This document shows positions 2,346 through 6,018 of a stretch of 64,000 nt of DNA, in pieces. The notes beneath the pieces were generated by a model. That model had not been told where the DNA came from. It saw nothing but the letters and a program-made list of their open reading frames with translations, and searched no databases. The position numbers and the translations under genes were made by a program. Position 1 is the first letter of the stretch; each line of letters begins with the position of its first letter. The DNA comes from Luteibacter sp. Sphag1AF. Its GTDB lineage: Bacteria > Pseudomonadota > Gammaproteobacteria > Xanthomonadales > Rhodanobacteraceae. The stretch is taken from positions 310,001 to 374,000 of the forward strand of contig NZ_JACHYH010000001.1 of assembly GCF_014192715.1 (NCBI RefSeq). The letters are read 5' to 3'.

Positions 2346-2834
2346 TCAGGGGCGCACGGCCGTCACTTCGATCTCCACCAGGAAACCCGGATTGGCCAGG
2401 GCCGCCACCTGCATCGCCGAGCGCGACGGCAGTTTCGGCTGCGTCGGCGTGCCGAAAAACTGTGTGTAGCCCTGCATGAATCCGGCGAAGTCCATCTTGC
2501 CGCCCTTGGCCGGATCGCCCACCAGGAAGACCTGCATCTTGACCACGTCGCCCATGCCGAGCCCCATGCTCTTGAGCTGCTTTTCGATGGCACCAAGCAC
2601 CCCGGCGGTCTGGGTCTTCGTATCGCCATAGGCAGCGGGACTGTCCTTGGCCGCAGACGCATCCGCCACGGGTGGAACCACGCCGCTCAGAAACACCAGC
2701 GTCTTTCCGGCCGGCACTTCCACCGCCGCAGAAATCGGGAAGGTACTGTTGGGAATCGCATGCCTCACCACATCGGTGGCGGTTGCCTGCGAGGCGAGGC
2801 CCAGAATCGGAAGCAGCAGCGCGAGCTTTTTCAT
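2346..2834 (-). CDS. RidA family protein with a signal peptide (predicted periplasmic imine deaminase)
   Basis: A 162-residue protein of the RidA/YjgF family, which hydrolyses reactive enamines and imines to carbonyl compounds plus ammonia. It carries an N-terminal secretion signal (MKKLALLLPILG, probable cleavage after A19 in QATA), unlike cytosolic RidA. The family's key arginine is present as R138 in KLPSRSAMQV, and the terminal EIEV strand is conserved, so activity is plausible. The start is the ATG at 2834, preceded by AGGAGAAACC, which overlaps the stop of the cytochrome c gene as ATGA. It is the last gene of a three-gene operon with an FAD amine oxidase. I infer that it clears the imine product of that oxidase in the periplasm. 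Confidence 0.85.
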   Translation of the reverse strand: MKKLALLLPILGLASQATATDVVRHAIPNSTFPISAAVEVPAGKTLVFLSGVVPPVADASAAKDSPAAYGDTKTQTAGVLGAIEKQLKSMGLGMGDVVKMQVFLVGDPAKGGKMDFAGFMQGYTQFFGTPTQPKLPSRSAMQVAALANPGFLVEIEVTAVRP

Positions 2835-3235
2835 GGTTTCTCCTGAGGACGCAGTGCCTGAACCTGCGCGGCAGTCAGTGGGTCGTGATAGTCGTTGCCA
2901 AAATGCGTGCGAACGTAGTTCACCACATCCGCGATTTGCTGATTGCTGAGCACGTTCCCAAACGCAGGCATCCCCGCACGACCATTCAACACCATCGCAG
3001 CGGGATACAGCGCCGAGGCCAGCCTGGGATTGGCAGCCAGCGCAGGATACGCCCCAGCCCCGGCCGCACCCTTGCCGTCCGCCATGTGGCATGCCTGGCA
3101 GATGTGGGTGAAGAACGCATGGCCATCGGCTGTGGCTGCGGATTTCTGATCCAGAAAAGGCGGGTCATCGGCCGCCTGTGCGGCGGCGCTGAAAGTCACA
3201 AGACACGCCACGAGCATCGAGGTCACATGTTTCAT
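2831..3235 (-). CDS. secreted c-type cytochrome
   Basis: A 134-residue class I cytochrome c. A Sec signal peptide ends at AAAQA near residue 21. The haem attachment motif CQACH is at residues 46-50, and Met89 in GRAGMPAFG is the probable axial ligand. SNQQIADVVNYVR is the usual C-terminal helix. Both flanking genes overlap it by ATGA junctions, so translation is probably coupled with the upstream FAD oxidase and the downstream RidA gene. Such an arrangement suggests it takes electrons from the flavoenzyme and passes them to the respiratory chain, as reported for cytochrome-c-linked members of the flavin amine oxidase family. That partnership is inferred from context. Confidence 0.9.
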   Translation of the reverse strand: MKHVTSMLVACLVTFSAAAQAADDPPFLDQKSAATADGHAFFTHICQACHMADGKGAAGAGAYPALAANPRLASALYPAAMVLNGRAGMPAFGNVLSNQQIADVVNYVRTHFGNDYHDPLTAAQVQALRPQEKP

Positions 3236-4836
3236 GCCCGACCTCCCGCCAACGCGCGACGGTGCACCTGGTCGATGGCCGAAAGCGACGAAAGAATCGC
3301 GCCTTCCTGCCACGCTGGCAGATACGACGCGTGTTCGCCCGCCAGCACGATGCGGCCGTCCATCGCGCACAGATCGGCGTAATGCTTCTCGCGCATCTGA
3401 TCGGACCAGTTGCCAAAACAGCCCAGCGTGAAAGGCGAACGATGCCACGCGACGGCCATGCCGTTTTCATACGTGTCGGCGTATTGCGGATGAATCTGCT
3501 TGCCGTATTCCAGCGCCGCGCGAATGCGCTCAGCCGGATCAAGCGCCGTGAATTCCAGCGCCTCGACAAAAAAGGTGTACGAGGCAAGCAGCACGCCCTT
3601 CTTCGTACCGAAACCGTGGCTGGGATAGGACATCATGCCGATGGGCAAATCGCTGAAAGACACGCCACCGTAAATGGCATCGTCTTCTTCCCAGAACCGC
3701 CGGCTGAACTGGATGCCCACCTTGTTCGATGCGGCGTATGGCACGGCACTGATGGCGGCGGCCATCGCGGCCCCCACCTGCACCGGAATCTGACTCAGGA
3801 TCGACAGCGGAATCGTGCACACGCACCAGTCCGCTTTCGCCACATGCCGGCTTCCCGGTGCCTTCGTATCCTCATATGCAACGCTTACGCCTGCGCTGTC
3901 CTGGGCGATGTCCACGACTTTGGCACCGTAGCGGACATGCGAGCCCACTTCACGACCAAATGCCTTGCCGATGGCGTCCATGCCACCCACCGGCTGCATC
4001 ATGGTGGTCTGGTATTCGTACTGATCGCTGGCGGCGAGGTTGCCCCAGAGCCGCGCATTCAATACGTCATGCAATCCTACGGGCGTGGAAAAATCCGGCT
4101 TGCCATGGGCTCCGCCGCCGGCATCACGCGCGTAGCCGCGATAGTCATTGCTCACTGGCCCGGCAGCGTACGAAAAGTCCCTGTTCAGGCCGCCCCATTC
4201 GCGCATCGCTTCGAGGAGAATTTCGCGGTCTTCCTTGGTGACCAGATCATCCAGGCGCCCGGTCGATGTGGCCTTGGCCAGCAGTTCGGCGACACCGCCG
4301 TTGAAGTCCGCCTTTACCTCACGGATGCGCTGCGGTTTGCCGCCAAACGCATCGCGGCGATGAAAGTATGCGTTGTGATTGAGCTGGACAAACGGCTCCA
4401 GAGCCACGCCCAGCTGACGGCAATAATCCAGTACGCCGTGATGGTGATAAGGAATGCGCCACGGTCCCGGATTGAAATACTGCCCTTCATCGAACTGGCA
4501 GCGCTGGGTGTGGCCGCCCAATTCCGTGTAGAGGTCACCACCGCGCAGTGTCCAGTTGCGGCCGCCAAGGCGCTGGTTGTATTCCAGCACCTGCACTTTG
4601 TAGCCGGCTTTGCCGAGTTCATACGCGGCCACCAGACCCGCAAGACCTGCACCCAGGATCAGTACGGACTGGCCATTTCCCGATCCTGCCAGTGGGGGCG
4701 GCGGTCGATATGGAGATTCCTTCGCAAACCCCAGACCCGTCATCGCCTGGTACATCAGCGCTCCGCTGCCCGCCATGCCGATCATCCGCAGCATCTGCCG
4801 CCGGGTCATCGTGGGCATGAATGTGTCCTCTGCCAT
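3232..4836 (-). CDS. Tat-exported flavin monoamine oxidase/dehydrogenase
   Basis: A 534-residue FAD enzyme of the amine oxidase superfamily. A twin-arginine signal (TRRQMLRMIG, residues 11-20) predicts folded export to the periplasm. The dinucleotide-binding GAGLAG is at 62-67, followed by the family signature RLGGRNWT. A second FAD-contact motif (VLAGEHASYLPAWQEGA) lies near the C-terminus. The chosen ATG at 4836 follows GGGGAGATC; an upstream in-frame start exists but lacks a ribosome-binding site. It leads an operon with a cytochrome c and a periplasmic RidA, which suggests an amine or amino-acid dehydrogenase that passes electrons to cytochrome c and whose imine product is hydrolysed by RidA. 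The substrate cannot be told from sequence. Confidence 0.87.
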   Translation of the reverse strand: MAEDTFMPTMTRRQMLRMIGMAGSGALMYQAMTGLGFAKESPYRPPPPLAGSGNGQSVLILGAGLAGLVAAYELGKAGYKVQVLEYNQRLGGRNWTLRGGDLYTELGGHTQRCQFDEGQYFNPGPWRIPYHHHGVLDYCRQLGVALEPFVQLNHNAYFHRRDAFGGKPQRIREVKADFNGGVAELLAKATSTGRLDDLVTKEDREILLEAMREWGGLNRDFSYAAGPVSNDYRGYARDAGGGAHGKPDFSTPVGLHDVLNARLWGNLAASDQYEYQTTMMQPVGGMDAIGKAFGREVGSHVRYGAKVVDIAQDSAGVSVAYEDTKAPGSRHVAKADWCVCTIPLSILSQIPVQVGAAMAAAISAVPYAASNKVGIQFSRRFWEEDDAIYGGVSFSDLPIGMMSYPSHGFGTKKGVLLASYTFFVEALEFTALDPAERIRAALEYGKQIHPQYADTYENGMAVAWHRSPFTLGCFGNWSDQMREKHYADLCAMDGRIVLAGEHASYLPAWQEGAILSSLSAIDQVHRRALAGGRA

Positions 4837-4998
4837 GATCTCCCCTCGTCCGCCTGCGCCAGGAAGCGCCATTATCGGAATCCCCCGACCCCATCCCCCT
4901 AGCATCAGCCGCCGACCCTCCATTCACAAGTAGCCTTTCGGCACCCTGCTGACACGGGCGCGGTGCAGGCAGCACGCCCAACCTCGCACGCGCCTCGG

Positions 4999-5004
4999 TA
5001 TGAT
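4999..5004 (+). promoter_or_regulatory. -10 element placing the start site at the amgK ATG (leaderless)
   Basis: TATGAT lies exactly six bases before the amgK ATG at 5011, and there is no Shine-Dalgarno sequence. With normal spacing transcription would begin at the A of the start codon, giving a leaderless mRNA. No good -35 is visible. Confidence 0.5.
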
Positions 5005-5010
5005 TCGCCC

Positions 5011-6018
5011 ATGCTTACCGACCGCACTTCCGCTCGTCTCGCCTGGGCCCGCTCCGTCACGGGTGATGCCTCCCTTGAACTCGTACCGGCCTCGGCCGAC
5101 GCCAGCTTTCGCAGCTATTGGCGCGGCGAGGTAGATGGCGGCACGGTGATCGTCATGGATTCCCCGCCCGAGAAAGAAAATCCGGCGCCATGGATCGCAA
5201 TTGGCACGCGGCTGGCTTCGGCAGGACTGCACGTTCCGAAGGTCCACGCGTACGACGCCACACAAGGTTTTTTGCTCATTGATGACCTGGGCACGCGCAC
5301 GTACTTGCCCGAGCTGAACGATGACTCCGTGGACGCGCTGTATGCCGATGCACTGGATGCGCTGATCCACATGCAGACGCACGTAGACACGCGCGAACTG
5401 CCAGATTTCGACCGCGCATGGCAGACCATGGAACTGGAAATCATGCCTACATGGTTTCTGGAAACCCATCTGGGACAGACACTGGCTTGCAGCGACTGGG
5501 ACGTGATCGAGGCGGCTTTCGACGTGCTGATGCATGGCATTGCCGAACAGCCGCGCGCGTTCATGCACCGCGATTATCACAGCCGCAATCTGCTGGTTTG
5601 CCCGGAACACAATCCGGGCATCATTGATTTTCAGGGCGCTATGGTGGGACCGATCACGTACGACCTGGCCTCGCTGCTTCGCGACTGCTACATCGTGTGG
5701 GACAACGAACGCGTTCAGGGGTGGGTCGAAGGTTACCGGCTGCGCCTGCTGCACACGCATATCATCGAGGATACCGTGGACACCGATCGCTTCCAGCGCT
5801 GGTTTGATTTCGCCGGCCTGCAACGCCACATCAAGGTGCTGGGTCTGTTCTGCCGACTCTGGTATCGCGATGGCAAGCCGGGCTATCTGACCGACCTGCC
5901 CCGCGTGCTCACCTATATTCTGGATGTATCGCGCCGTCATCATGAACTCGCGGCGTTCGCCGATCTTCTGGAAGCCAGGATAGGCAATTGCGATATCCGC
6001 GAGGCGCGCGCGGCATGA
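5011..6018 (+). CDS. amgK: N-acetylmuramate/N-acetylglucosamine anomeric kinase AmgK
   Basis: A 335-residue sugar kinase of the aminoglycoside phosphotransferase fold. AmgK phosphorylates MurNAc (and GlcNAc) at C1, the first committed step of the cell-wall recycling shortcut that bypasses de novo UDP-MurNAc synthesis. The catalytic loop HRDYHSRN holds Asp188, and the metal-binding IDFQG motif holds Asp206; ITYDLASLLRD follows as in the family. The ATG at 5011 lacks a ribosome-binding site and sits six bases after a -10 box. The stop overlaps the start of murU as ATGA, and this pairing fixes the function more firmly than the fold alone. The pathway is known to confer intrinsic fosfomycin tolerance in pseudomonads. 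Confidence 0.92.
   Translation: MLTDRTSARLAWARSVTGDASLELVPASADASFRSYWRGEVDGGTVIVMDSPPEKENPAPWIAIGTRLASAGLHVPKVHAYDATQGFLLIDDLGTRTYLPELNDDSVDALYADALDALIHMQTHVDTRELPDFDRAWQTMELEIMPTWFLETHLGQTLACSDWDVIEAAFDVLMHGIAEQPRAFMHRDYHSRNLLVCPEHNPGIIDFQGAMVGPITYDLASLLRDCYIVWDNERVQGWVEGYRLRLLHTHIIEDTVDTDRFQRWFDFAGLQRHIKVLGLFCRLWYRDGKPGYLTDLPRVLTYILDVSRRHHELAAFADLLEARIGNCDIREARAA

Follow-up and report, generated by a model that had tools for sequence, protein, structure and literature searches.

The window analysed here, a stretch of 64,000 nucleotides from Luteibacter sp. Sphag1AF (contig NZ_JACHYH010000001.1, positions 310,001 to 374,000; genome of 4.18 Mb in 18 contigs), holds on its minus strand three joined genes that encode an L-amino acid oxidase (LAAO)-like enzyme with a flavin adenine dinucleotide (FAD) cofactor and a twin-arginine translocation (Tat) signal, a small cytochrome c with a general secretory (Sec) signal, and a protein of the Rid family with a signal-like leader (Table 1).

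Table 1. The three genes of the operon, with positions in the window
Product	Position	Strand	Features
FAD L-amino acid oxidase/dehydrogenase-like, Tat signal	3232..4836	minus	534 aa; PF01593 (E 1.6e-51); TRRQMLRMIG; Arg127 in GPWRIP
Monohaem cytochrome c, Sec signal	2831..3235	minus	134 aa; CQACH; PF13442 and PF00034; ATGA overlap with the oxidase stop
Rid3-subfamily imine hydrolase-like, Sec-type leader	2346..2834	minus	162 aa; PF01042 (E 1.3e-17); Arg138, Ile34, Glu154; ATGA overlap with the cytochrome gene

This composition, including the CQACH motif, the signal peptides and the two ATGA overlaps, had been described in an earlier reading of the bare DNA (the sequence-only reading) and was confirmed by the open reading frames and their Pfam matches. 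The genes follow each other in the order oxidase, cytochrome c, Rid, and the window in this way carries the lao-cccA-ridA gene set (LAAO, cytochrome c, and Rid, in this order and on the same strand). Purine-rich sequences resembling ribosome-binding sites precede all three starts (GAGGGGAGATC, GGGAGGTCGGGC, and AGGAGAAACC), the best of them being an AGGAG before the Rid start. As the upstream neighbor is a divergent gene starting at ~4963–5011 and a separate gene occupies 1003–2280 on the other side, the operon seems limited to these three genes. In relatives of this genome the oxidase/cytochrome junction was again an overlap of −4 in 32 of 37 further loci, while the cytochrome/Rid junction was −4 in 7 of 31, the others ranging from −1 to +110 (starts were chosen by script in both counts); ATGA at both junctions was rejected as a hallmark of the operon, since wide conservation was found only for the first. 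The genome encodes TatC of the Tat system and CcmH of the cytochrome c maturation system.

The best match to the oxidase in the PDB was the Rhodococcus opacus L-amino acid oxidase (2jae, E-value 1.7e-85, over residues 55–528), followed by reconstructed tetrapod-ancestor enzymes and other L-amino acid oxidases. Arg127, within the GPWRIP segment, aligned to the RIP motif of 2jae, and both Arg127 and Pro129 were kept in all 102 nonredundant oxidases; we take this arginine to be the residue which binds the substrate carboxylate in the L-amino acid oxidase family. Family match, closest kin, and the RIP arginine together place the protein in the L-amino acid oxidase branch of PF01593, and the kinship to 2jae combined with the invariance of the arginine makes 2-imino acids its expected product. 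The sequence-only reading had pointed to family members from nicotine degradation that donate electrons to cytochrome c; a likeness to these did not hold, as no chain named after a nicotine enzyme was among the 49 PDB sequences matching at an E-value of 1e-10, and we rejected a nicotine-oxidase kinship because the same search put L-amino acid oxidases nearest. Judged by its sequence, the enzyme is L-amino-acid-oxidase-like and not nicotine-oxidase-like. The twin arginines of its Tat motif, as judged by motif, were present at Arg12 in 100 and at Arg13 in 101 of the 102 oxidases.

The steadiest companion of this oxidase is the cytochrome gene. A gene with a haem motif lay 3′ of the oxidase in all 38 close-oxidase loci of relatives, the window included, and in 21 of 30 oxidase loci sampled across the phylum (adjacency being defined as a CxxCH gene on the same strand and no more than 1.3 kb 3′ of the oxidase, with one phylum case, L171, 486 bases away). 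The operonic cytochrome c of the window has a Sec signal both by our rule and by eye, and its haem attachment, like its choice as partner of the oxidase, is predicted. On a quick tree of the 102 oxidases, which has long branches meeting and was used solely for counts of changes and for one grouping described below, the association with the cytochrome required 2 changes and that with Rid 10, which suggests that the oxidase-cytochrome pair is the steadier core and that Rid was more often gained or lost.

The sequence-only reading had proposed that the three genes be sought together across genomes, and they proved to be co-conserved. This Rid occurs in 39 and a close oxidase, defined as one of 57% identity or more, in 34 of 149 genomes of relatives, a set that includes the window genome; 33 have both, 6 only the Rid, 1 only the oxidase, and 109 neither, four of the latter carrying a distant oxidase (31–39%). 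Across the phylum, 398 genomes yielded this Rid in 25 and the oxidase in 27 at the thresholds used, with both in 24, the Rid only in 1 (a partial match of 77 residues), the oxidase only in 3, and neither in 370 (Fisher p 3.7e-34). When the 30 phylum oxidase loci were read, 20 had Rid, 15 had both Rid and the cytochrome, and 4 had neither. The order oxidase-cytochrome-Rid was found in 31 of 38 Rid loci fetched from relatives, the other 7 being without an adjacent oxidase; conversely, the 38 close-oxidase loci, from which five of the 43 oxidase matches in relatives (those at 31–39%) had been excluded, included Rid in 32 and no adjacent Rid in 6. Loci L072–L077 consist of oxidase and cytochrome without Rid. 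The trio is thus co-conserved beyond chance though not a fixed unit, and a strict three-gene unit was rejected because either part also occurs alone, oxidase-cytochrome pairs without Rid as well as Rid genes with no oxidase adjoining.

Beyond these samples, we read named loci recovered with Rid as query, the best 80 of 540; all three genes were present in 69, and 11 gave no full-length oxidase call, in two of which (L117 and L134) the oxidase reading was cut short; they include loci of Dyella, Xanthomonas, Mesorhizobium, Aminobacter, Inquilinus, Variovorax, Cupriavidus, and Pseudomonas. Because Rid served as the query for these loci and for most of the nonredundant set, the share of them that has Rid is biased, and it is the searches of relatives and of the phylum by oxidase that provide oxidase-first samples. 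On plasmids, 35 records matched the oxidase, and of the six that we examined four carried the trio (Microvirga, Sulfitobacter, Comamonas, and Ketogulonicigenium). The stretches from a Deinococcus plasmid and a Rhizobium tropici plasmid showed oxidase and cytochrome with no annotated Rid, in gene tables that are incomplete and, for R. tropici, with one gap unread. The region immediately 3′ of the operon contains annotated group II intron maturase genes on two plasmids from nodule bacteria (L229, 7042–8292; L228, 6263–6628).

The third protein of the operon is, by its sequence features, a member of the Rid3 subfamily. Its best PDB matches were PSPTO3006 (6.6e-40) and PFL1385 (4.8e-33), the next match scoring 4.4e-6, and it resembles these two proteins (PDB 9bka and 9bkc) in keeping the Arg and Glu and in having Ile for Tyr. 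In 107 nonredundant Rid proteins Arg138 and Glu154 were invariant, and Ile34, which we equated with the Tyr column of RidA by reading PIS against PYS, was found in 104 (with one Phe and two gaps); replacement of the RidA Tyr by Ile has been given as a mark of Rid3 (PMC4433059).

Unlike the PSPTO3006 chain (144 residues) and the Pseudomonas proteins of 140–144 aa, which are without a leader, the window Rid begins with a signal-like segment that ends near an A-x-A. Among 17 Rid proteins chosen from 39, identity between species was 26% in the leader (the first ~20 residues) versus 65% elsewhere, and in the same proteins the leader was hydrophobic in 17 of 17 and began with a net positive charge in 16 of 17. 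A rough rule, kept as a screen, and inspection by eye served to identify signal peptides. At 86 nonredundant loci with adjacent oxidase and Rid, the rule called 80 Rid proteins signal-bearing and 6 not, of which 4 looked signal-like by eye, leaving L190 and L191 as clear exceptions. The rule also passed 3 of 17 presumed cytosolic controls (names and starts set by eye), so that single calls are no proof, and export rests on the cross-species pattern. Its label "SPII" for L037, L043, and L044 probably reflects a false lipobox inside a hydrophobic stretch, and its call of "none" looks wrong by eye for L095, L099, L188, L071, and L068, the last of which seems to start at a rare codon. The leaders of five proteins (L165, L167, L172, L175, and L117) have a lipobox-like Cys, e.g., in LLTGC, NVTGC, or AIGAC, and these Rid proteins may be lipoproteins. 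From this pattern, Rid3 looks exported at nearly every locus and apparently is a lipoprotein in some.

A Rid that stays in the cytoplasm, its leader being an uncleaved anchor or the product of a mis-set start, would be in keeping with the other two PF01042 proteins of this genome, neither of which has a signal-like leader by the rule, and with the leaderless form of this Rid type in four Pseudomonas genomes. We regard it as very improbable, given the strong AGGAG site at the Rid start and a leader which changes fast yet stays signal-like, ends near A-x-A, and is lipobox-like in some lineages. At seven loci (L052, L058, L061, L062, L066, L070, and L071) a Rid3 gene with a signal-like leader has no oxidase or cytochrome gene adjoining; six of these genomes have no oxidase match at an E-value of 1e-40, the seventh (G070) has one elsewhere, and L070 lies close to a contig end.

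The leaderless forms belong to the Pseudomonas family, where this Rid type was found in 20 of 198 genomes and had an adjacent oxidase in 18. Five of these 18 loci have the cytochrome gene and both leaders, nine have no cytochrome gene and keep both leaders, and four (L190, L191, L219, and L222) have neither the cytochrome gene nor a Rid leader. In these four the Rid begins just before the fold, and the oxidase segment past the Arg pair has several charges, so that in one Pseudomonas branch the Rid looks cytosolic and the Tat segment of the oxidase spoiled. One reading of these sequences is that export of the oxidase and of Rid was lost jointly, the cytochrome gene having gone before; as the nine genomes without the cytochrome gene keep both leaders, the loss of leaders is not simply a consequence of the loss of the cytochrome. 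The two leaderless sequences that were on the tree grouped together, which makes this one event and no statistical pattern. Of the two Rid proteins outside these 18 loci, one (G451) is a fragment and the other (G542) is divergent, lacking both a leader and an oxidase.

Based on these features, we consider that the operon probably encodes a periplasmic, cytochrome-c-linked L-amino acid dehydrogenase module with its own imine hydrolase. The flavoenzyme would fold with FAD in the cytoplasm, leave by the Tat system, and oxidatively convert at least one L-amino acid to its 2-imino acid; the operonic cytochrome c would oxidize the reduced flavin in single-electron steps and pass the electrons to a terminal oxidase, so that little hydrogen peroxide would form; and the exported Rid3 would hydrolyze the imino acid to a 2-oxo acid and ammonia at the site of its formation. 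We infer the substrate class, the electron path, and the need for Rid, the electron step by analogy with Tat flavoenzymes of NicA2-related clades having an operonic cytochrome c, which are dehydrogenases (PMC12224317), and the imine step by analogy with Rid3 proteins that clear imines formed by a snake L-amino acid oxidase (PMC5619798).

Much of this had been anticipated in the sequence-only reading, which proposed a periplasmic imine pathway feeding respiration. Its cytochrome partner and its intact Rid Arg138 were both upheld, and co-conservation and the predicted export of all three proteins speak for the pathway as a whole; the trio it saw as joined is co-conserved and loosely so, and its exported RidA agrees with the leader pattern across species. 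Of the three findings that it named as refuting the pathway, two fail so far as can be judged from sequence. Its description of that role as unrecognized was overstated, given PMC5053998 and PMC10805672.

Several observations weigh against the module as we propose it. In addition to the controls passed by the signal rule and the nine Pseudomonas-family loci which keep both leaders without a cytochrome gene, the 102 nonredundant oxidases included 9 with Rid and no cytochrome c, 12 with cytochrome c and no Rid, and 4 with neither; 21 Rid loci had no full-length oxidase call; and the five distant oxidases of relatives (L078–L082) had neither partner by tblastn. The nine with Rid and no cytochrome gene would also fit a periplasmic true oxidase that uses O2 and makes hydrogen peroxide in the manner of antibacterial or nitrogen-scavenging L-amino acid oxidases, with the cytochrome c serving elsewhere or scavenging peroxide. 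The solved relatives of the enzyme do carry oxidase names, a periplasmic Chlamydomonas LAAO makes hydrogen peroxide (PMC10805672), and most Tat flavoenzymes tested that have no nearby cytochrome gene were fast with O2 (PMC12224317); however, a cytochrome gene follows the oxidase at every close locus of relatives and overlaps it by 4 bases at 32 of 37 such loci other than the window, and we think a true oxidase unlikely here.

The gene neighborhoods bear on the substrate of the proposed dehydrogenase and point to a possible fourth component. A TonB-dependent receptor gene (PF00593, PF07715) was found near the oxidase at 26 of 97 nonredundant loci, representing 21 of 55 oxidase lineages (receptors were grouped loosely, and loci were counted if they had at least 2 kb upstream, though nine receptors lie downstream), and at 11 of 27 loci in the oxidase-first phylum sample. 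Seventeen receptors were upstream, 14 on the same strand (12 of these within 300 bases) and 3 on the opposite strand, and the other 9 were downstream, among them five that directly follow Rid in Pseudomonas loci having no cytochrome c. An example is the gene at L053:7666-10113. Eight genomes of 2.8–5.5 Mb held 25–60 receptors each, or ~1 per 70–125 kb, a density at which a few per cent to about one-tenth of loci would be paired by chance. The association suggests that some species import the substrate into the periplasm. It also favors a narrower alternative, in which the substrate is an amine or a specialized amino compound imported by the receptor, instead of ordinary L-amino acids, and Rid hydrolyzes its imine. 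That the nearest known enzymes are L-amino acid oxidases with an invariant RIP Arg and that a related lao gene is needed for the conversion of tryptophan (PMC5053998) both argue for ordinary amino acids; with some receptor neighbors due to chance at such numbers per genome and none adjoining the window operon, we find the specialized substrate unlikely.

Other neighbors are recorded as observations. Three oxidase-cytochrome loci without Rid (L075, L076, and L077) have upstream of the oxidase a gene for a large exported hydrolase, which on inspection resembles an X-Pro dipeptidyl peptidase or an amino acid ester hydrolase. In the window, and not adjoining the operon, 15–887 encodes the C-terminal part of an apparent outer-membrane beta-barrel protein, cut by the window start, whose sole Pfam match (PF25183) was sub-threshold.

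A possible biological setting for the Luteibacter operon comes from auxin. An endohyphal Luteibacter boosts the auxin of its fungus in a manner that requires tryptophan, and the bacterium alone makes none (PMC3782478). Extending the dehydrogenase module to these data, we tentatively propose, as a reading that is possible but doubtful in its entirety, that Rid3 is mainly an extracytoplasmic protein, secreted or lipid-anchored, which in most cases belongs with an L-amino acid dehydrogenase linked to cytochrome c and is often encoded close to a TonB receptor, that a Pseudomonas offshoot is cytosolic and its oxidase lost the Tat signal as well, and that the Luteibacter module makes indole-3-pyruvate from tryptophan outside the cell, a fungal decarboxylase finishing the auxin. 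External conversion of tryptophan to indole-3-pyruvate, with the fungus completing the pathway, would explain how a Luteibacter that makes no auxin alone can raise that of its host. The same lack of auxin from tryptophan alone in the Luteibacter isolate (PMC3782478) limits the tryptophan reading and counts against it. A full auxin pathway within the cell was not supported, as the best match in the window genome to TIGR03394 (indole/phenylpyruvate decarboxylase), the one decarboxylase family searched, scored 105.6 bits against a curated cut-off of 554.5; since none of 14 control genomes reached the cut-off either, this absence is weak evidence. In the excerpts of a transcriptome paper on the Luteibacter-fungus pair (PMC9040847), RidA, amino acid oxidase, and amine oxidase are not mentioned.

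The best-known role of Rid proteins is to protect cytosolic enzymes that use pyridoxal phosphate. If the proposal is true, a widespread exported set of Rid proteins would mean that reactive imino acids are managed in the periplasm too, Rid3 would gain a concrete partner and place, and the idea of cytochrome-c-linked dehydrogenases would extend from amine to amino acid enzymes. The module also offers a testable route for the effect of Luteibacter on the auxin of its fungal host.

Among the closest known systems is the lao-cccA-ridA operon (GDI2456-2454) of Gluconacetobacter diazotrophicus PAL5, published in 2016 (PMC5053998), which is like the window operon in its three functions, their order, and a Tat-signal LAAO modelled on the R. 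opacus enzyme. According to the portions of that paper available to us, lao insertions lowered the transcripts of lao, cccA, and ridA, left tryptophan largely unused, and gave no auxin; mutants in cytochrome c maturation are cited as yielding 5% of the auxin; the authors proposed that the cytochrome c and RidA cooperate with the LAAO, which they suggested to be periplasmic; and OperonDB is cited for the same cluster in Caulobacter and Xanthomonas. G. diazotrophicus is the one species for which we know of genetic evidence of a role in turning tryptophan into indole-3-pyruvate. By the printed positions of the ridA primers (the full sequence was not compared), the core motifs of its RidA lie 3–4 codons later than those of the window Rid, which implies an N-terminal extension about as long. 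Those portions ascribed neither a signal peptide nor export to RidA, and they did not call the LAAO a dehydrogenase.

For the electron step, a model is the NicA2/Pnao/CycN type, which shares with the window a Tat flavoenzyme of the flavoprotein amine oxidoreductase superfamily and an operonic Sec cytochrome c, and in 2025 such enzymes were shown to be true dehydrogenases in NicA2-related clades (PMC12224317). That study sampled relatives of NicA2, and "l-amino acid" and "rida" do not occur in the text of it that we had, while the window enzyme is LAAO-like. As for the imine step, the proteins shown to clear imines from snake L-amino acid oxidase in vitro are the Rid3 members PSPTO_3006 and PFL_1385 (PMC5619798), and Rid3 genes at times cluster with FAD amine oxidases, the in vivo substrates of Rid3 having been termed unknown in 2015 (PMC4433059). 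The words "periplasm" and "signal" have no occurrences in PMC5619798, nor has "periplasm" in PMC4433059. In Chlamydomonas an LAAO and its RidA partner both lie beyond the cytosol, LAO1 being in the periplasm with LAO2/RIDA (PMC10805672); this pair differs from the window operon in being eukaryotic, in having an oxidase that makes hydrogen peroxide, and, in the sections of the paper at hand, in having no cytochrome c gene mentioned in its cluster. In the open-licence literature that we searched, we found no statement that a bacterial Rid is exported and no paper using phrases such as "periplasmic RidA". The operon type has been known in print since 2016 with much the same hypothesis, and the module, conserved and coherent in its mechanism, is largely anticipated; the aspect that has received little description is that Rid3 appears to be exported.

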